Part shown: positions 10,412 through 34,930 of the stretch, piece by piece | Layout: every line of letters starts with the position of its first letter | Numbering within the stretch: position 1 is the first letter of the stretch | Source: Acetomicrobium hydrogeniformans | GTDB taxonomy: Bacteria > Synergistota > Synergistia > Synergistales > JAFGMB01 | Direction of reading: 5' to 3' | Assembly (NCBI GenBank): GCA_016841745.1 | Contig: JAENYO010000011.1 | Location: forward strand, 1-64,000 | Length of the DNA: 64,000 nt | Program-made: the position numbers and the translations under genes | Notes under the pieces: generated by a model | Told to the model about the DNA's origin: nothing | Databases searched by the model: none | The model's input: the letters and a program-made list of their open reading frames with translations, nothing else

Positions 10412-11347
10412 TCACATTAAATGGGTTTCAACAATATGTTCTTTCTTGAAGCCTTCAAGCTGAAGCTGATGTTCAAAACAATTAATTATGAAATCCAATC
10501 TTACAATACCTACAAGTTCAGAACCGGTTACTCTTGTTCCATACCTTTCAGCTTCGCTTTTTACCATTTCAAAAGGCCTGTATATTGGAGTCTTAGCACA
10601 ATCCATAACGTTCATAGATACTACAGTACCTGGCCTTCCATCAAACTTAATGCCTATTGCCTGAACCGTTGAAAAACCGCCACTTGCACTTCTGATCGAG
10701 TTTGCAATTTTCTTCGCGATAGAAAGGTCTTCAGTGTCAAGGAAAACGTTAAAGAAAGCGGCAATATCTTCGAATGCACCTATAACAGTGCCACCCGCTG
10801 TTTCATGAAGTAAACCATCTGCACTAAGATCAGGTTTTCTTAATTTGTACTCATCTGCTCTATCGGAACAATCCTTTGTTTCTTTTAACAAGTCACGGAG
10901 TCCTTCAAACTGTCCCTTCCTGATAAATGGCAGTTTTTTTCTCTTTTCACAGTTCGCAGTTGCACCCGTGAAGAAAATGGGGATCCTGGTCTCTTGAAAA
11001 ATCTCATCGCCTAGTTCCTGGCAGAATATTTTAGTTTCATCAATTGTTATGTTCTTAAACGGGTATACAGGAATGACATCCATAGCTCCCATTCTAGGAT
11101 GCGTTCCTGTATGTTTTTGCATGTCAATCAACTCAACACTCTTTGCGGTAAGCTTAACAAGAGCACTTTTTAACGGTTCGATTTCCCCCACTAAAGTGAT
11201 AACGGTTCTGTTAAATTCGCCCTCTGGTTCATATTTTACTAGAGTTACGCCATCAATATTTTTTACAACACCAACAATCTTTTCGACAATGTCCATATCC
11301 CTTGCTTCACTAAAATTTGGATTCGCCAATAAGTATTTCCTGTCCAT
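10412..11347 (-). CDS. ftcD: Glutamate formimidoyltransferase
   Basis: 311 residues from the ATG at 11347, which has AAAGGAGGG upstream. The protein contains HTGTHPRMGAMDVIPVYP with His83, equivalent to the catalytic His of the formiminotransferase half of FTCD, and the closing segment GSELVGIVRLD. It transfers the formimino group of N-formimino-L-glutamate to tetrahydrofolate in histidine degradation. No cyclodeaminase domain is fused and none is encoded in the window. It sits between a ureohydrolase and hutD on the same strand, though with gaps of about 500 and 265 bases. Confidence 0.93.
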   Translation of the reverse strand: MDRKYLLANPNFSEARDMDIVEKIVGVVKNIDGVTLVKYEPEGEFNRTVITLVGEIEPLKSALVKLTAKSVELIDMQKHTGTHPRMGAMDVIPVYPFKNITIDETKIFCQELGDEIFQETRIPIFFTGATANCEKRKKLPFIRKGQFEGLRDLLKETKDCSDRADEYKLRKPDLSADGLLHETAGGTVIGAFEDIAAFFNVFLDTEDLSIAKKIANSIRSASGGFSTVQAIGIKFDGRPGTVVSMNVMDCAKTPIYRPFEMVKSEAERYGTRVTGSELVGIVRLDFIINCFEHQLQLEGFKKEHIVETHLM

Positions 11348-11851
11348 GATTGGTTTCCCTCCTTTATTTTCTTGATTTATGCGTTGCGAGTTGTAATGTA
11401 CGATATGGTTAAAAGAGTAAAGGAACTTCAATTTTAAGGTATCATTAAGACTTTTTGGTGAGTTAATTTATGGACATTGGGTAAAAAATTCAGTGGTGGA
11501 TTGCTCCGACCAGGTCATGTCGCGATGTTCTTTCCAGTCTTTTCATGTTCATATGTTGCTCGAAATCCTGGCACTAACCCCAAGACCCGATCCAGTATTC
11601 AAGTTGGGGAAAAATAACCTTCTCCCTTAAGTCGATTTCTAACATTGAAACTGGACTCACTATTATTGTGAAAATAGTCTTCAGCACCGCCCCGTTACTA
11701 TTGTTTCCCGGCCTCACGATTCGTGAGCATTGTCCGCATCTTTTTCTCATCAGGACCTGACTGGAGAGAATATCCGAACCTTGTATAGGGGCTCTCTCTG
11801 CTTTCCCGTTACAAGGTCCGGTACGTTACTTTTCTCATGTGGTTGACAGGA
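11348..11851. other. Long gap between ftcD and the ureohydrolase
   Basis: About 500 bases without a gene. On the minus strand it can fold: CCTTGTA (near 11817) pairs with TACAAGG (near 11785), and CTCACG/CGTGAG forms a hairpin around 11718. Neither is followed by a T-run, so they are not ordinary terminators. A promoter for ftcD-hutD may lie here. Confidence 0.35.
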
Positions 11852-12811
11852 TTATTTCTTCTGTAATTTTTTCTCTTTTTCCTTCAGAATGAAACCAAGG
11901 AAATCCAGGATAAGTCTCGCTGCCATCATGCTCGTCGTTCCATTGGTATCATATGATGGTGCCACTTCAACAAAATCGAAGCCTATGACGTCTCCTTTTT
12001 TTGCTATGAGCTCGAGCATCTCGTTCATCTCATCGTAATTGAACCCCCCAAAAGAAGGTGAGCCCGAACCTGGGGCCAGAGACCCGTCAATTCCATCCAC
12101 ATCCATGGAAACGTAGTATTTTTGAGATTTTGGAACCATATCCATCGCATTCTCAATGCCCATTTTACGGATCTCCTTCGGAGACATTATGACGCTGCCA
12201 TAAGCGCGGGCATCATCGAAATCAGATTTAAAGCTGCTTCCCACGCCTCTTACGCCAAATTGGGCCATACCCTTGAAGTGATTCATTTCAGAGATGCGCC
12301 TCGCAGGGCTTCCATTGCCGTACCTTTGGCCGAATCGTACATCGGCCCAATCGAGATGTGCGTCCAAATGGAAGTATGTTATGTCCTGATATTTGTCCAA
12401 TCCTTTGGCAACAGGTATCGTTATCGAGTGATCGCCTCCCAGGGTTACCGGGATCGCACCTTTAGCCACAATCTTCCTTACCATTTCCTCACAGTTGTCA
12501 AAACTTTGTTTCAGGTCCCCATGGATGATATCCACATCTCCACAGTCTACGATTTTCCAGGGAGGCCCCAAATACACATCATCCCGTTCGGGATCGTAGG
12601 ATCCATTCAATCCCATGAAGGCAGTCGATTCACTTCTGATCTCTCTGGGGCCGAAACGTGTTCCGGAACGCGACTGAACTGCAATGTCACATGGCATGCC
12701 CATTATTGCGACGTCAGCATCAAGTTCATCCAGATCTGTACAAATGGGGTACTTCCCAAAAGATGCAATTCCGACAAAGGGTAAATTGAGTTTTTTAACC
12801 TGATTGCTCAT
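11852..12811 (-). CDS. Ureohydrolase (agmatinase/formimidoylglutamase family)
   Basis: 319 residues, ATG preceded by GGAGG. All binuclear manganese ligands are visible: GGDHS (His128), HLDAHLD (Asp150, His152, Asp154) and SMDVDGID (Asp237, Asp239). The family hydrolyses guanidino or formimino C-N bonds (arginine, agmatine, guanidinobutyrate, formiminoglutamate). The loop after the last motif is DGSLAPGSGSPS rather than the usual DP.xAPGTGTP, so the substrate may differ from agmatine. Position after a TRAP transporter and before ftcD and hutD makes a formimino or guanidino acid taken up from outside plausible; this is inference. Confidence 0.9.
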   Translation of the reverse strand: MSNQVKKLNLPFVGIASFGKYPICTDLDELDADVAIMGMPCDIAVQSRSGTRFGPREIRSESTAFMGLNGSYDPERDDVYLGPPWKIVDCGDVDIIHGDLKQSFDNCEEMVRKIVAKGAIPVTLGGDHSITIPVAKGLDKYQDITYFHLDAHLDWADVRFGQRYGNGSPARRISEMNHFKGMAQFGVRGVGSSFKSDFDDARAYGSVIMSPKEIRKMGIENAMDMVPKSQKYYVSMDVDGIDGSLAPGSGSPSFGGFNYDEMNEMLELIAKKGDVIGFDFVEVAPSYDTNGTTSMMAARLILDFLGFILKEKEKKLQKK

Positions 12812-12925: not shown

Positions 12926-14005
12926 TTATTGGCCAATTAACTCCGCTTCATATTTCTTAACATCTTCCATCCACAGAGCAATAATCTCCGGGCCGTTTTC
13001 CCCGGAATCCTTGAGGAATTCTTCCCTTGCGGGGATGCTTGCTTCAACAATTCGAGCCCTCTCCTTGGGATCCAATTCGAGAATCTGAGTATTGCCTGAA
13101 GCGAGAATCTGCTCTTTGGCATACTCTACCATTTCATCCATTTTCGAAAAAGTATATTCCATGGCAACTTCGATGGCCTTTTCTATCTTCTCCTGGTCTT
13201 CCCTTGCCAGACTATTCCAGAAACTCTTCCCTGCAGAAAACCCGTTAACAACCCCCGTATGGTTCGAGAGAATCACATATTTCTGAACTTCGTAGTATTT
13301 GTTGCTGTATATTGTGCTTACAGGATTTTCCTGTGCGTCGGCTACATGAAGTTGCAGAGCACTATAAACTTCCGCGTAGGGAACCTCTGTGGGGTTAGCT
13401 TTCAAAACCCGGTAGTTAGCAACGATCTGCGATGAGGGGTAAACCCGCATCTTCAAACCTTCCAGATCCTCAAGTTTCTGGATCGGATAATTTGATGACC
13501 AGCAACTGAAATCTTCAAGGAACCAGCGAATAACCTTGATATTCTGGGCTTCCAGCTTCTTTTCGAGGAGCTGGAAGGCCTTCCCCTCGTTTATCGCTTT
13601 GTCATTCACATCATAGTGTTCGCTTAACATGAAATTGATTGATAAGAATTTTGCCTCTGGAACGATCTGTCCCAGAGGGGCAGCAGTCGCTGGGATATTG
13701 AACTCCAGAGCGCCGTTCTGTAGAAGTTCTGCCATCGCTGTATAGCTTCCAAGCTGTCCTGCGGGGAAATGTTCTATCTTTACCTTCCCTTCAAAGTTTT
13801 TCTCTATCTCCTCGATAATTTTCTCTGCCCACATATGTGTTATTTCGCCTTCGTAGGCGGCATGGGCAAGCTTCCAGACCACCGGTTTCTTAGAATCCAT
13901 AACCGATTTTGGATTACCTGCGGCTTCAATGCTAACCAGGGACATATTCAACAGGAAACACACGGCCACCATAATTCCAACAAACACCAACGATTTTCTC
14001 TTCAC
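12926..14005 (-). CDS. dctP: TRAP transporter solute-binding protein DctP
   Basis: 359 residues from a GTG at 14005, 8 bases after GGAGG. Signal peptide at about 1-29 (MKRKSLVFVGIMVAVCFLLN..IEAAG). The mature part has the DctP pattern: WKLAHA at the start, FPAGQLGSYTAMAELLQNGALEF, then LKMRVYPSSQIVANYRVLKANPTEVPYAEVYSAL-type segment with the substrate-anchoring Arg, and VADAQENPV. It captures an organic acid in the periplasm for the QM membrane pair encoded upstream. Ligand not predictable from motifs alone; the neighbouring ureohydrolase and ftcD suggest an amino-acid-derived acid. Confidence 0.93.
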   Translation of the reverse strand: MKRKSLVFVGIMVAVCFLLNMSLVSIEAAGNPKSVMDSKKPVVWKLAHAAYEGEITHMWAEKIIEEIEKNFEGKVKIEHFPAGQLGSYTAMAELLQNGALEFNIPATAAPLGQIVPEAKFLSINFMLSEHYDVNDKAINEGKAFQLLEKKLEAQNIKVIRWFLEDFSCWSSNYPIQKLEDLEGLKMRVYPSSQIVANYRVLKANPTEVPYAEVYSALQLHVADAQENPVSTIYSNKYYEVQKYVILSNHTGVVNGFSAGKSFWNSLAREDQEKIEKAIEVAMEYTFSKMDEMVEYAKEQILASGNTQILELDPKERARIVEASIPAREEFLKDSGENGPEIIALWMEDVKKYEAELIGQ

Positions 14006-14128: not shown

Positions 14129-15412
14129 TCAATTATTGAAGAAAAACAGCCTATAAATCGTTGCGATCTCCGGCACATAGATGATGAGAATTGAAAATAA
14201 GATGAACATCAAGAGATATGGTGTTATGCCCTTGACGACATCCCAATAAGATTCGTTAAATGCCGCGCAGGCAACGAAAATATTGGAGCCAAAAGGTGGA
14301 GTAATTCCGCCTACGGCAGACTGAAGTGTAACCACGATCCCCAAATGTATCGGGTCGATTCCAGCCCGCATTGCGACAGGAAAGAAAATGGGTACCAGAA
14401 TGAGATTGGCGACTATTGGATCAACGAACATACAGGCAAAGAAGAAGAAAATAGTCACAACGAACAGGATCTTTACCGGCGATGGATCGGCACCCAAAAA
14501 AAGCATTGTCAGCTCTTGAGGAATACGCGCATAAGTCAGAAGCCAGGAAAAAGCCTGACCTACCGATATCAGGATAAATAACGCCGATGTTATTGCTCCT
14601 GTTGAAAGAGCTACGTCGTATATATCCCTGATACTCACGACACGGTATATGAACATCTCGCAGACCACAGCGTAAAGGACGGACACCGCCGCAGCCTCTG
14701 TGGGGCTAAAGAATCCCGAATAGATGCCACCGATGATGATGAAGGGAAACCCTAAAGCCAATAGTGCTCTCTTAAAACTTTTCCACCTTTTTGGCCAAGG
14801 CAACCGTTCCGTTCTGGGTATCCTCAGTTTTTTCGAATGGAAATAGTTATAAATTGAAAACATCATGAAAATAAACAAACCAGGACCAACCCCTGCGATA
14901 AAAAGCTCGCCCACAGATACGCTGGTCAGGACGCAAAAAACGATCATGCCTATGCTGGGAGGGATAAGACAAGCCAGGTTGGCCGCGCTTATGATGAGCG
15001 CGTTTACATCCTCTCTTTGATACCCTGAGCTTATCAGGCTGCCCCTCATGGGTTTTCCGATTGCAGCAACCGTAGCCTGGGTTGAACCCGATATCGCCCC
15101 GAAAATAGTGCATGCCCCAGCCAAAGATATCCCAAGCCCTCCGTACACATGTCCCACAAAGGCTTTAACTAAATCGATAAGCCGAGTTGCAATATAACCT
15201 CTGGTCATAATATCGGCGGCGAAAATATACATCGGTATAGCCAACAGGACAAACGAAGATATCCCGTCTATCATCTGCTGCATGATGACCGTAGGATTGA
15301 GGTTTGGCATGAACCCCAAAATGACAAGTACCGAAGTTAGCCCCAAAGTCATGAACATCGGGAAACCCGACAGGAGGATCAAAAACAATGAAATCAACAT
15401 AAAAGCCAACAT
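14129..15412 (-). CDS. dctM: TRAP transporter large permease DctM
   Basis: 427 residues from the ATG at 15412, which has GAGGTG 6 bases upstream; an in-frame GTG lies at 15421. About 12 hydrophobic segments are spread over the protein. Family signatures include FGAISGSTQATVAAIG, LIPPSIGMIVF and VGGITPPFGSNIFVA. It forms the sodium-coupled transport channel with DctQ. It is the second gene of the leader-controlled operon; the gap to dctP is about 120 bases. Confidence 0.94.
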   Translation of the reverse strand: MLAFMLISLFLILLSGFPMFMTLGLTSVLVILGFMPNLNPTVIMQQMIDGISSFVLLAIPMYIFAADIMTRGYIATRLIDLVKAFVGHVYGGLGISLAGACTIFGAISGSTQATVAAIGKPMRGSLISSGYQREDVNALIISAANLACLIPPSIGMIVFCVLTSVSVGELFIAGVGPGLFIFMMFSIYNYFHSKKLRIPRTERLPWPKRWKSFKRALLALGFPFIIIGGIYSGFFSPTEAAAVSVLYAVVCEMFIYRVVSIRDIYDVALSTGAITSALFILISVGQAFSWLLTYARIPQELTMLFLGADPSPVKILFVVTIFFFFACMFVDPIVANLILVPIFFPVAMRAGIDPIHLGIVVTLQSAVGGITPPFGSNIFVACAAFNESYWDVVKGITPYLLMFILFSILIIYVPEIATIYRLFFFNN

Positions 15413-15451
15413 CGCAGACACCTCGTTCTATATAAACTTTTTCTGATCACC

Positions 15452-15961
15452 TTAGTGATAAGTTCCGATCAGATCTTTCTCTCCTTTGTTTCTGATATTC
15501 AGGTAAGAGATGCGAATAAACTGAGTTCCAGATGTAAAAAGACCTATTACAACCAGTACCGTGATCCAATGCACGGGAATTTTCAGGGATGAGGTCACCC
15601 TATTCGAGAGCTTTATGGCCCACATGTAGCGAAAGGCAACATAAGACAGGTAATAGAGCGTCATACCTGTGACGAGGGGAATGATAATTGCCAGCACTTT
15701 CCTGTATTTTGTGCCGATAAAATCATAAACCACACTCATTCGTATATGTCTTCCATGCCGCGCCACATAGCTTAACCCGATGAACGTGATAGCAATGAGC
15801 AAAATTTGTCCTACTTCTTCCGCCATAACGATACTTCGGGAAAAAAAGGTCCGTAAAAAAACGTTGATCAACAACAACACGGACATACTGATGATACCGA
15901 GAGCCAATACGAGTTCTTCAATTTTTTCCAATAGATAATCGATCCATTTCAATAGAGACAT
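15452..15961 (-). CDS. dctQ: TRAP transporter small permease DctQ
   Basis: 169 residues, ATG 8 bases after GGAGGG. Four hydrophobic segments at about 15-35, 46-66, 86-108 and 128-148 and the family motif ..VFLRTFFSRSIVMAEEVGQILL..YVARHGRHIRM identify the small TRAP membrane subunit. First protein gene of the QMP-ureohydrolase operon. It is preceded by the leader peptide and attenuator at 16105..16352. Confidence 0.92.
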   Translation of the reverse strand: MSLLKWIDYLLEKIEELVLALGIISMSVLLLINVFLRTFFSRSIVMAEEVGQILLIAITFIGLSYVARHGRHIRMSVVYDFIGTKYRKVLAIIIPLVTGMTLYYLSYVAFRYMWAIKLSNRVTSSLKIPVHWITVLVVIGLFTSGTQFIRISYLNIRNKGEKDLIGTYH

Positions 15962-16112
15962 TCCCTCTACCCTCCATTTCTTTCTTGCATAAACTTTTTA
16001 CTTGAGATGCGCCTCTCAAAGAGTGTTTTATGGTTGGTTTTAAACTTCTGGTAACAGGTTGAGAGGTTCTGCATGGTTATTAAGAGCTGCTTTTGCTCAA
16101 AGAATAAAAGAA

Positions 16113-16146
16113 GGCCGGGATTCCAAAAAGCTTTTGGATCCCGGCC
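16113..16146 (-). terminator. Attenuator terminator ahead of the TRAP operon
   Basis: On the minus strand GGCCGGGAT-CCAAAA pairs with TTTTGG-AATCCCGGCC and is followed by TTCTTTTATTC. It lies between the leader peptide stop (16168) and dctQ (15961). The 5' arm is also complementary to leader segment GGATTCCCTCCTGG (16196-16183), which would form a competing antiterminator with CCAGGGCCGGGATCC. This is the expected logic of ribosome-mediated attenuation. Confidence 0.82.
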
Positions 16147-16167
16147 CTGGTTTTTGAGTACAGGCTT

Positions 16168-16266
16168 TTAAAAGCCGACTTCGCCAGGAGGGAATCCGCT
16201 GCTAATAACGATAACTAGTGATACTCGAGAAACAAGAACTAGATTCTTTCTAGTGTCGAAGCGCAT
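16168..16266 (-). CDS. Branched-chain-amino-acid-rich leader peptide
   Basis: 32 codons with GGGGGAG 9 bases before the ATG. The middle reads LVLVSRVSLVIVI: ten of thirteen codons are Leu, Val or Ile, and the peptide ends SSGFPPGEVGF. This resembles the ilv operon leader, which runs from hydrophobic Val/Ile tracts into a Pro/Gly-rich end. The stop codon TAA lies inside the small palindrome GGCTTTTAAAAGCC. Promoter upstream and terminator downstream complete an attenuator. The peptide itself probably has no function; its translation rate is the signal. Confidence 0.8.
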   Translation of the reverse strand: MRFDTRKNLVLVSRVSLVIVISSGFPPGEVGF

Positions 16267-16323
16267 CGTTAAAATCTCCCCCCTACTGAGACAAAATTGA
16301 GATTTTTCTGAATATTGTGTCGT

Positions 16324-16352
16324 ATGATATAGACCTTTGGGCTTCCTGTCAA
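16324..16352 (-). promoter_or_regulatory. Promoter of the TRAP operon leader
   Basis: On the minus strand TTGACA (16352-16347), a 17-base spacer and TATCAT (16329-16324). Transcription would start near 16317, about 50 bases ahead of the leader ATG. Confidence 0.72.
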
Positions 16353-16738: not shown

Positions 16739-17713
16739 TTATTTAGGGATTGAAGTTTCCTTTTTTGAATTTGCGTTGAGGCTAAATCCTATCGCATCAA
16801 GAATTATTCGGGCAGCAACCTGGTTTGTTAACCCGGTAAGATCATATGCAGGTGCGACTTCCACAAAATCCATTCCAACTAACCGCCCCATTTGCGTAAT
16901 TCCTTCAAGGAGTTCTTCTATTTCATAATAATCAAAACCACCTGGAGAAGGCGACCCAGTACCAGGCGCAATAGCCGGATTCAGAGAATCGCAATCAATG
17001 GTTAAATAAAATTGTTCAAACTCTGGCAATCGATTCAATGTTTCCGCTATTCCTATTTTGCGGATATCTCTCGTACTAAGAATCACATTACCGCATTTCC
17101 GAGCTTCTTCGAAATCTTCACGTTTACTACTCCCAATACCTCTTATTCCAAGTTGGGCGATACCCTTGACATGCTCACAATCATAAACTCTACGAATTGG
17201 GCTACCGTGACCATACCTATTACCACCCCTTATATCGACGAAATCAAGGTGTGCGTCAAAATGAATTACTGCAAACTCTCCGATGTTATCCATTGCTTCA
17301 ACAACAGGGGCTGTAATGGAATGGTCTCCCCCTAATACTATGGGTATAGCCCCATGAGATACAATTTTGCGGATGTGAGTTCGGATACTATCATGAGATC
17401 TTTCCTGATTTCCGTGAAAGATATCAACATCTCCACAATCGGCAAATTTGTACTTATTGTCAAGATAAACCTCATCCCTCTCTGGGTCATAAGCTCCATC
17501 CTTGCCCAGAGAATATATCGTAGAACCGTCTCTAATTCCTCGAGGGCCAAATCGTGCTCCCGGTCGATATTGCGTACTCATATCGTATGGAACACCTAAC
17601 ACAGCAACATCTGCATCAAGTTGGTTTAAATCAGTACAGATAGGCCATTTACAAAATGATGTGATCCCGGTAAAGGGTAAATCCAGTCGACTATTGGGGT
17701 CCAAAACCATCAT
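16739..17713 (-). CDS. Second ureohydrolase (agmatinase family)
   Basis: 324 residues from ATG 17713, or 323 from the adjacent ATG 17710, which is better spaced from AGGAGG. Metal ligands are intact: GGDHS (His131), HFDAHLD (Asp153, His155, Asp157) and TIDCDSLNPAIAPGTG. It is clearly a paralogue of the product at 11852 (shared N-terminus LPF.GI.SF.K.PICTDL.ELDADVA), but its last metal loop is closer to the canonical family form. It is divergent from an Lrp/AsnC regulator and has its own upstream region, so it is probably a separate transcript from the TRAP operon. Substrate unknown. Confidence 0.9.
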   Translation of the reverse strand: MMVLDPNSRLDLPFTGITSFCKWPICTDLNQLDADVAVLGVPYDMSTQYRPGARFGPRGIRDGSTIYSLGKDGAYDPERDEVYLDNKYKFADCGDVDIFHGNQERSHDSIRTHIRKIVSHGAIPIVLGGDHSITAPVVEAMDNIGEFAVIHFDAHLDFVDIRGGNRYGHGSPIRRVYDCEHVKGIAQLGIRGIGSSKREDFEEARKCGNVILSTRDIRKIGIAETLNRLPEFEQFYLTIDCDSLNPAIAPGTGSPSPGGFDYYEIEELLEGITQMGRLVGMDFVEVAPAYDLTGLTNQVAARIILDAIGFSLNANSKKETSIPK

Positions 17714-18011: not shown

Positions 18012-18491
18012 ATGAAAAGGCTGAAAACAAATAAGGTAGATGCAATTGATTGGAAAATACTAACTATATTGCAGGAAAACGCTCGTCTTTCTTTTAAGGA
18101 AATCGGTTCTATGGTTAATCTTACTTCTCCAGCTGTCTCTGAGAGAATCAAAAAAATGGAAGAGATGGAAATAATTACTGGGTATCATGCATCTTTGAAT
18201 CCAGATATCCTTGGATACCAGTGTCGCGTCATTATAAGACTCAGCACTTCAACTCATTGGCCGAATGAGAAAGTTAAAGACAAACTTGATAGTCTCCCAG
18301 GAATAGTCAATTACTGGATTTGCATTGGCGAATTTGATTACATAATTGAAGCAATTGCCCCTTCGTTACCAGAAATCGAGCAACTCATCATGCTCTTTTC
18401 TCAACACGGTTCAACAATATCTTCGGTTGTTTCCAGCTTTCGTCAATATTCATCACCCGTTATTCCTCCTGAAAAATATCACGTTAAATAG
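18012..18491 (+). CDS. Lrp/AsnC family transcriptional regulator
   Basis: 159 residues; AAGGAG lies 10 bases upstream. N-terminal helix-turn-helix (DWKILTILQENARLSFKEIGSMVNLTSPAVSERIKKMEE compressed over residues 12-52, motif quoted in part: VSERIKKME) and a C-terminal RAM ligand-binding domain (about 68-150) with the usual WICIGEFDYIIE strand. Such proteins bind amino acids and control amino-acid metabolism. Its divergent position points to control of the ureohydrolase at 16739 and perhaps the TRAP operon beyond. Confidence 0.93.
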   Translation: MKRLKTNKVDAIDWKILTILQENARLSFKEIGSMVNLTSPAVSERIKKMEEMEIITGYHASLNPDILGYQCRVIIRLSTSTHWPNEKVKDKLDSLPGIVNYWICIGEFDYIIEAIAPSLPEIEQLIMLFSQHGSTISSVVSSFRQYSSPVIPPEKYHVK

Positions 18492-33475: not shown

Positions 33476-33559
33476 ATGAGAGACTTCTTCGATCTTTCCG
33501 CTGTTCTGCCCTATATAATTATTCTAAGTGTGGGACCCCCTTTGGGGACCGACGCTTAG
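33476..33559 (+). CDS. Ile/Leu-rich leader peptide
   Basis: 27 codons; AGGAG lies 8 bases before the ATG. The second half reads VLPYIIILSVGPPLGTDA, with four consecutive codons ATA ATT ATT CTA (Ile-Ile-Ile-Leu). The run into a Pro/Gly-rich end is like ilv leaders and like the other leader in this window at 16168. The TAG stop lies in the loop of a GACGC/GCGTC hairpin (33551-33566). It serves as the translated sensor of an attenuator. Confidence 0.8.
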   Translation: MRDFFDLSAVLPYIIILSVGPPLGTDA

Positions 33560-33614
33560 TTGCGTCTGGTTTACCAAAGGCCGGGGTCCCAATAAGGGAA
33601 TCCCGGCCTTTTTT
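33532..33614 (+). terminator. Attenuator: antiterminator and terminator
   Basis: GGGACCCC (33532-33539) is perfectly complementary to GGGGTCCC (33583-33590). The latter overlaps the 5' arm of the terminator AAGGCCGGG (33577-33585) / CCCGGCCTT (33602-33610), which is followed by TTTTATTTT. The two pairings are mutually exclusive. Ribosome stalling at the Ile/Leu codons would favour one or the other. Confidence 0.82.
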
Positions 33615-33751
33615 ATTTTCAATTGTTAAATATGTAATTTTACAGGAGGTGATCAGGAGATAACCAGGAAACATTGTTAAGGATTTTTTTCATCAGTGGC
33701 GAGGGCGTTATTTTAAACTTTTCTTAGAATGTCAGAATGGAGGGAAATTAT

Positions 33752-34930
33752 ATGGATGCGCTTACAGCGTTTGTTATTATTGCAGCAGTTTTTGCAGTTG
33801 GTGATTTTGTTGCCTGCAAGACAAAAGCAATATGTTCCATGATTTTTGTTTCAGGGCTTGTTTTTCTTGTAGGGTTCTGGTATTTCATCCCGAAAACTCT
33901 TTTTGCTGATTCCCAGTTGATCCAGGTAGGGATACTTTCCATCCCCATCCTCCTCGTTTACATGGGGACCCTGATGAAACTCAAGGACCTTAAGGATGAA
34001 TGGAAGACGGTCCTCATTGCCTTTGGAGCTGTTGTTGCAGTGGGAATTTCCATGCTTTTTGTAGCCAGCCCCATTATTGGAAAGCAGTTTGCAGTAGCAG
34101 GTGCGGGTCCCATCTCCGGCGGAGTTGTGGCCACCTTCATGGTCAATGAAGTTGCCACCGCAAAGGGACTTGATGAAGTGGCAGTGTTCGCGACACTCCT
34201 GCTGGTCCTTCAGACCTTTGTGGGTCTGCCCATTGCTTCCATATGTCTTGCGAAGGAAGGGAAAAAACTTCATAGCCAGTTCAAGGCTGGAGAAGTCCTC
34301 ATGGCTGATCCCTCGAAGGACGGGGCAGAACCCGACAAACCTACATGGAAGATCTTCCCGGCTACCCCGAAGCAGCTTCAGACACCATTTATTCTTATTA
34401 TGAAAACTGCCCTTATCGGATTGCTTGCCTTCAAGGCCGCTGCCCTGACGGGCGGTGTTGTGAATAAATACATTCTCTGTCTTGTTTTCGGTATGCTTTT
34501 CTATGAGACAGGTTTCCTTGAACATAAGATCATGGATAAGGCCAATGCAACAGGTTTCCTTCTTTTCCCGCTTATGGTGATAATCTTCCTGAATCTTCCC
34601 AAGGCAACCCCCGATATGGTGGCCAAACTAATAACGCCCATAGTCATAGCCTTTGCAGTTTCAGTTGTTGGAATAGCAATATTTACATTTGTCCTGGGCA
34701 AGTTCTGTAAATACTCCTGGAATCTTTCCCTTGCAATAGGGGTTACATGTATGTTCGGATTTCCCGGCACCTTCATAGTGGCCCAGGAAGTCTGCCAGGC
34801 TGTTTCAGATACACCTGAGGAGAAGGAATTCCTTTTGAGCCGACTTCTTCCCAAGATGCTTGTTGCCGGATTTACCACAGTTACCATAGCATCTGTGGTC
34901 TTGGCAGGTGTCCTGGTCAAGTACATCTAG
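33752..34930 (+). CDS. DUF3100 family membrane protein (putative transporter)
   Basis: 392 residues from ATG 33752, 7 bases after GGAGGG. About ten hydrophobic helices in two halves with a hydrophilic loop at about 170-200, and a repeated Gly-rich helix (GPISGGVVATFMVNEVA; MFGFPGTFIVAQEV) as in secondary carriers. I recognise it as DUF3100-like; the family often neighbours amidohydrolases and M20 peptidases, as here. It probably imports the substrate of the two hydrolases that follow. Expressed from the attenuator-controlled promoter at 33413. Confidence 0.72.
   Translation: MDALTAFVIIAAVFAVGDFVACKTKAICSMIFVSGLVFLVGFWYFIPKTLFADSQLIQVGILSIPILLVYMGTLMKLKDLKDEWKTVLIAFGAVVAVGISMLFVASPIIGKQFAVAGAGPISGGVVATFMVNEVATAKGLDEVAVFATLLLVLQTFVGLPIASICLAKEGKKLHSQFKAGEVLMADPSKDGAEPDKPTWKIFPATPKQLQTPFILIMKTALIGLLAFKAAALTGGVVNKYILCLVFGMLFYETGFLEHKIMDKANATGFLLFPLMVIIFLNLPKATPDMVAKLITPIVIAFAVSVVGIAIFTFVLGKFCKYSWNLSLAIGVTCMFGFPGTFIVAQEVCQAVSDTPEEKEFLLSRLLPKMLVAGFTTVTIASVVLAGVLVKYI

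Follow-up and report, generated by a model that had tools for sequence, protein, structure and literature searches.

A putative branched-chain amino acid attenuator of a Synergistota-wide leader family upstream of a TRAP transporter-ureohydrolase operon in Acetomicrobium hydrogeniformans

We analysed a 64,000-nt stretch of the genome of Acetomicrobium hydrogeniformans (contig JAENYO010000011.1, positions 1 to 64,000; referred to as the window), for which an earlier reading of the letters alone, the original prediction, had proposed a leader-peptide attenuator ahead of a dctQMP-ureohydrolase operon encoding a TRAP transporter. On the minus strand we found a sigma-70-type promoter (TTGACA at 16352-16347, a 17-nt spacer and TATCAT at 16329-16324; 11 of 12 consensus matches), followed by a Shine-Dalgarno site (GGGGGGAG, 16283-16276) and a leader open reading frame (ORF) of 32 codons, which runs from the ATG at 16266 to the TAA at 16168 and encodes MRFDTRKNLVLVSRVSLVIVISSGFPPGEVGF. 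Its control stretch is LVLVSRVSLVIVI, and leucine, valine or isoleucine (Leu/Val/Ile) occupy 10 of 13 codons there. The stop codon is enclosed by a hairpin (GGCTTTTAAAAGCC, 16176-16163), and two mutually exclusive stems share region 3 (CCAGGGCCGGGATCC, 16150-16136), which can pair either with region 2 (GGATTCCCTCCTGG, 16197-16184), the 5' arm of an antiterminator lying inside the leader ORF, or with region 4 (GGAATCCCGGCC, 16124-16113), giving an intrinsic terminator with a U-rich tail (TTCTTTTATTCTTT) that extends to 16105. The sequence parts of an attenuator are assembled here, i.e. a translatable leader with regulatory codons and a ribosome-binding site, an intrinsic terminator and a competing antiterminator, at a distance of ~145 nt from dctQ. 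Promoter, Shine-Dalgarno site, 32-codon leader, TAA within a hairpin, competing stems and T-rich run had all been named in the original prediction, and each was recovered where it had been placed on the minus strand. The competing stems as such stand, but their details had to be corrected: the 2:3 pairing has 7 bp and a further ~5-6 bp flanking an internal loop, with one G-U pair, the 11-bp terminator stem carries one bulged A, and the U-tract is interrupted, whereas relatives have unbroken T runs. A simple pattern scan of the region did not report this terminator.

A DNA search of 61 genomes identified as the closest relative a leader in another genus of the same family (G001:C251; 80% over 265 nt), which is followed by a hydratase-like gene, leuC and leuD. 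The shared stretch begins at about the -35 box and fades at the end of the terminator, and its 3' structured part is better conserved than the 5' part. A second copy in the A. hydrogeniformans genome itself (G000:C14:390371; 74%) precedes the same type of operon with leuB added. The E values for the similarity to these leu leaders are 1.7e-64 and 4.7e-16, and in two other genomes (G002 and G011) the leader precedes ilvN-ilvC. Most such leaders, the leu leaders of A. hydrogeniformans and G001 among them, have the -35 sequence TTGACA in common. From 12 leaders, the window leader among them, we built a covariance model (R1), which found at least one match in 126 of 188 Synergistota genomes. In the A. 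hydrogeniformans genome it matches 18-22 places (22 at E <= 0.05, a few of these being opposite-strand or overlapping duplicates); the window leader, which is part of the training set, scores 98.8 bits (E = 3.5e-23 in this genome). A pattern scan of contigs was too loose in GC-rich genomes; once the terminator arm was required, only Synergistota contigs and loci were left, and the named records behind the convincing filtered matches were likewise Synergistota. At the Rfam gathering score there was no leader, riboswitch or T-box match between 15800 and 16800, and the only match in the whole window was one tRNA.

The original prediction had asked for compensatory changes in both stems, and these were found across the family. 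Already within the 12 leaders, one position of the shared helix alternates between A-U and G-C, and its antiterminator and terminator partners change in parallel. In a larger alignment of 97 distinct leaders, compared with 500 shuffles, the terminator stem is 98% paired and shows double-sided changes in 11 of 11 pairs (132 cells, against 35.5 +/- 4.2 in the shuffles). Corresponding counts are 83 double-sided cells for the antiterminator (28 +/- 5.3 in the shuffles) and 93 cells changed on both sides for the stop-codon hairpin (29 +/- 3.8). In each of the three stems, none of the 500 shuffles reached the observed covariation score. As the alignment was fitted to a model containing the terminator and the stop hairpin, the counts for these two lean towards the model; the antiterminator is absent from the model and its covariation is thus independent of it. 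Related sequences can exceed shuffles without any structure, hence controls with slid pairing partners are also relevant, and here the true register was best on every measure. Together with the homologous ilv/leu leaders, the covariation in both stems strongly supports ribosome-mediated attenuation by branched-chain amino acids, as originally proposed.

Very probably, the element is a classical ribosome-mediated attenuator sensing charged Leu/Val/Ile tRNAs, a member of a Synergistota-wide family that was recruited in front of dctQMP and the ureohydrolase. Its parts, its family membership and its two competing stems are established at the sequence level; from its position we infer that it controls the TRAP operon. 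When Leu/Val/Ile are plentiful, the ribosome would reach the leader stop codon, melt the stop hairpin and mask the end of region 2, so that regions 3 and 4 would form the terminator and transcription would end near 16105. At low supply of these amino acids, the ribosome would stall in LVLVSRVSLVIVI, region 2 would pair with region 3, and transcription would read through into dctQMP and the ureohydrolase gene, products that would presumably be useful in branched-chain amino acid shortage. In the minimum free energy fold of the 5' part, the leader Shine-Dalgarno site pairs with region 2, both in the window and in the four nearest homologs, suggesting that an untranslated leader would terminate by default. 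A conserved in-frame Pro-Pro-Gly (GxPPG) was considered as a ribosome-stall signal and rejected: many members do not have it (GSSVG, GSPEV, GSHPG), and the motif is accounted for by the constraint that region 2 is under as RNA.

The first gene behind the attenuator is dctQ (small permease, 15452..15961, PF04290), followed on the same minus strand by dctM (large permease, 14129..15421, TIGR00786/PF06808), dctP (solute-binding protein, 12926..14005, PF03480) and a ureohydrolase gene of the arginase/agmatinase family (11852..12811), whose nearest solved relative is the guanidinobutyrase 3nio. The position of the leader before these genes, which had been called unexpected, is real and unusual. After a gap of 420 nt there is an ftcD-like gene for a glutamate formimidoyltransferase (10412..11431, minus strand, TIGR02024), which is probably but not certainly co-transcribed with the upstream operon, and then a HutD-like gene. 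The nearest solved relatives of DctP (among them 4pfi, 3fxb and 2vpn) are too diverse for a substrate assignment. Between terminator and dctQ we noticed an 18-nt palindrome (TTGAGAGGCGCATCTCAA, 16019-16002, minus strand) and an 8-bp inverted repeat (CCTCTCAA/TTGAGAGG, 16066-16059 with 16019-16012, minus strand), possibly an operator or a hairpin of the untranslated region; the scan showed no further promoter or terminator pattern between leader and dctQ. Just upstream of the leader lies a second ureohydrolase gene (16739-17713, minus strand; product 53% identical to that of the operon), with an Lrp/AsnC-type regulator gene divergent from it (18012-18491, plus strand).

Within the phylum the operon has a single close ortholog, in genome G035, where the gene order including ftcD is the same. 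Identities of the operon proteins (DctQ 73%, DctM 87%, DctP 84%, ureohydrolase 91%, FtcD 80%) exceed that of RpoA (63%), an indication that the operon has been shared horizontally; RpoA served as the yardstick in place of IlvC, for which there was no match in G035, G001 or G042. The original prediction had proposed to look for a conserved leader at dctQ orthologs, and this expectation did not hold: before dctQ of G035 there is neither an R1 match nor similar DNA. Since this is the only close ortholog, the link between leader and operon is lineage-specific rather than an ancestral, conserved feature of the operon. A TRAP dctP gene in G175 (PF03480) is a second, independent case: it bears a leader that its 93% identical ortholog in G177 lacks, although close to the gene the upstream DNA of the two genomes is similar. 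The simplest reading of both cases is that complete promoter-leader-terminator cassettes have been captured by transporter operons, i.e. that they appear to hop; alternatively, the leader may have been lost from the relatives (G035, G177).

Several observations weigh against a functional attenuator at this locus. The 2:3 antiterminator of the window is weaker than those of the homologs (-23.4 versus -27 to -33 kcal/mol), the terminator has the bulged A and the interrupted U-tract described above, the orthologous operon of G035 lacks the leader, and it is not obvious how branched-chain amino acids would be linked metabolically to an operon for a ureohydrolase and FtcD. Because of the weaker 2:3 pairing, the bulged A and the interrupted U-tract, the window copy could be partly decaying. 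In the extreme, it would be a relict leu-type leader, left by duplication or transfer and acting as no more than a promoter or a weak terminator, not truly controlled by amino acids, and its closest relative is indeed a leu leader of another genus. However, promoter, Shine-Dalgarno site, reading frame and Leu/Val/Ile run are intact, both stems still form, region 2 accommodates a C-to-T change by forming a G-U pair, and compared with G001 the structured 3' part is visibly the more conserved one; we therefore regard a mere relict as unlikely.

Marginally less probable still would be an operon driven by a leader-independent promoter between terminator and dctQ, with an attenuator that matters little. 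The gap of about 145 nt offers room for it, and the inverted repeat and palindrome would provide a candidate binding site, but the gap contains no sigma-70-like match, the leader promoter being the only one on this strand. As to a mere coincidence of a hydrophobic short ORF beside a terminator, the statistics of the single sequence are noticeable but not overwhelming: the fold of the whole leader has z = -2.96 relative to shuffles, and an equal Leu/Val/Ile density in any plus frame occurred in 19 of 5000 mononucleotide shuffles of the region. The evidence that decides against chance is comparative. The R1 score speaks against coincidence, although the window leader is itself in the training set; independently of it, the DNA similarity to leu leaders and the covariation in three stems refute coincidence, and we retain the classical attenuator as our reading of the locus.

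The leader codons of the family generally fit the gene that follows (120 unique matches; the gene counts rest on short sequence motifs, and ten sampled proteins were checked against Pfam). Leu/Val/Ile leaders precede ilvN-ilvC (about 45), leuA (11), leuC (2) and ilvD (1), an Ile leader precedes ilvA and a Val leader panB. Runs of methionine (Met) codons are found ahead of genes for MetY-like enzymes as well as for a methionine-type ABC transporter or NlpA lipoprotein, phenylalanine/tyrosine (Phe/Tyr) leaders before PheC-like and PaaK-like genes, and a threonine/methionine (Thr/Met) leader before the homoserine dehydrogenase gene hom. Permeases recur under Leu/Val/Ile-type leaders, namely an unclassified permease-like protein (8), provisionally labelled 'YkvI-like' and having neither a Pfam nor an NCBIfam match, and an NSS symporter (2). 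Further targets of this type are the dctP of G175 and an unclassified membrane protein (2 cases, of which one lies in the window at 33520). There, a second attenuator of the family (33476-33615, plus strand), with a leader encoding MRDFFDLSAVLPYIIILSVGPPLGTDA and a terminator, precedes the gene of this protein (33737-34930). G054 has a comparable pair (L273).

Some members of the family show additional features. In the leu operons of A. hydrogeniformans and G001, a second leader with LLGLL in its peptide lies directly before leuC (L021:3960-4057 and L022:1732-1825, both on the minus strand), so that leuCD appears to be doubly attenuated in both genomes. The ilvN-ilvC leader of A. hydrogeniformans is present in apparent tandem copies with a run of N between them (G000:C8:513412-513821; L177, L182, L189), which could reflect either a genuine duplication or an error of the assembly. 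In 18 of the 120 leader matches a short ORF (about 45-70 aa) follows that carries a conserved WRGPFEG-[YLVMH]-R at its stop codon, sometimes twice (L021, on the minus strand between leader and hydratase-like gene, L022, L023, L152, L176/L250, L162, L172, L254, L261, L265, L266, L269-L272, L276, L300 and L317). Three such ORFs gave no convincing Pfam or NCBIfam match; they possibly encode an undescribed small protein or a second regulatory peptide under branched-chain amino acid attenuation. No WRGPFEG ORF follows the TRAP leader of the window. At two loci (L086, L127) a Leu/Val/Ile leader has no recognised amino-acid gene downstream, and the next ORF looks, by eye, like a PAS-type sensor.

The switch itself is of a known type. 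Enterobacterial attenuators of ilvGMEDA and leu (ilvL, leuL) have a Leu/Val/Ile-rich leader of about 30 codons, the last part of which contains region 2, alternative 2:3 and 3:4 stems and a U-tract terminator, and the Synergistota element has all of these in common with them. It differs in belonging to a family without an Rfam match, in the covarying hairpin around its stop codon, in the TRAP operon as its target, and in its region 1, which is apparently formed by the Shine-Dalgarno site of the leader itself. Leader-peptide attenuation is well known from Proteobacteria and Actinobacteria (PMC1262725); cases from Firmicutes, e.g. for his genes, followed (PMC2965389, PMC9413887). The Actinobacteria and Firmicutes leaders likewise lie outside the Proteobacteria; they belong to other phyla and have mostly biosynthetic targets, whereas in the Synergistota family a common core is combined with interchangeable control codons, which specify Leu/Val/Ile, Met, aromatic amino acids or Thr. 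'Hopping' or 'mobile' attenuators upstream of unrelated genes, implying relocation, have been described (Naville and Gautheret 2010, PMC2965389); here, a complete cassette stands before two different TRAP operons, each without it in the closest relative. A survey including Thermovirga lienii (Synergistetes) reports candidate Phe/Tyr upstream ORFs before shikimate genes, the accessible text not stating the source genome (PMC6429828). Aromatic members of such leaders may thus have been sighted in part before; the passages concerned mention neither Leu/Val/Ile leaders nor transporters as targets. In the open-access library that was searched (subscription journals lying outside it), no paper combined TRAP transporters with leader-peptide attenuators. 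The family thus appears uncatalogued, and its target here is unusual for a phylum in which mostly amino-acid biosynthesis genes are preceded by it, although absence from Rfam and from the open-access literature is not proof of novelty.

More interesting than the single element is the regulon of the phylum together with the hopping of complete cassettes. Tentatively, and with not quite even confidence, we propose that Synergistota use one modular core, a default-off switch of Shine-Dalgarno site and region 2 with exchangeable control codons, to form a general amino-acid-starvation regulon that would cover biosynthesis, permeases and an undescribed small-protein family, and that complete cassettes may hop onto horizontally moved operons such as TRAP-ureohydrolase, placing them under branched-chain amino acid control. 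The findings extend classical leader-peptide attenuation across an entire phylum, in which a single covarying core accommodates many amino-acid specificities, and regulons can therefore be predicted for uncultured amino-acid-degrading anaerobes. The two TRAP operons would be specific examples of transporter genes that have acquired an attenuator cassette in full. The leaders also give hints of function for transporters without an assigned substrate: permease and TRAP systems under Leu/Val/Ile leaders become candidates for taking up branched-chain amino acids or the keto acids that precede them.
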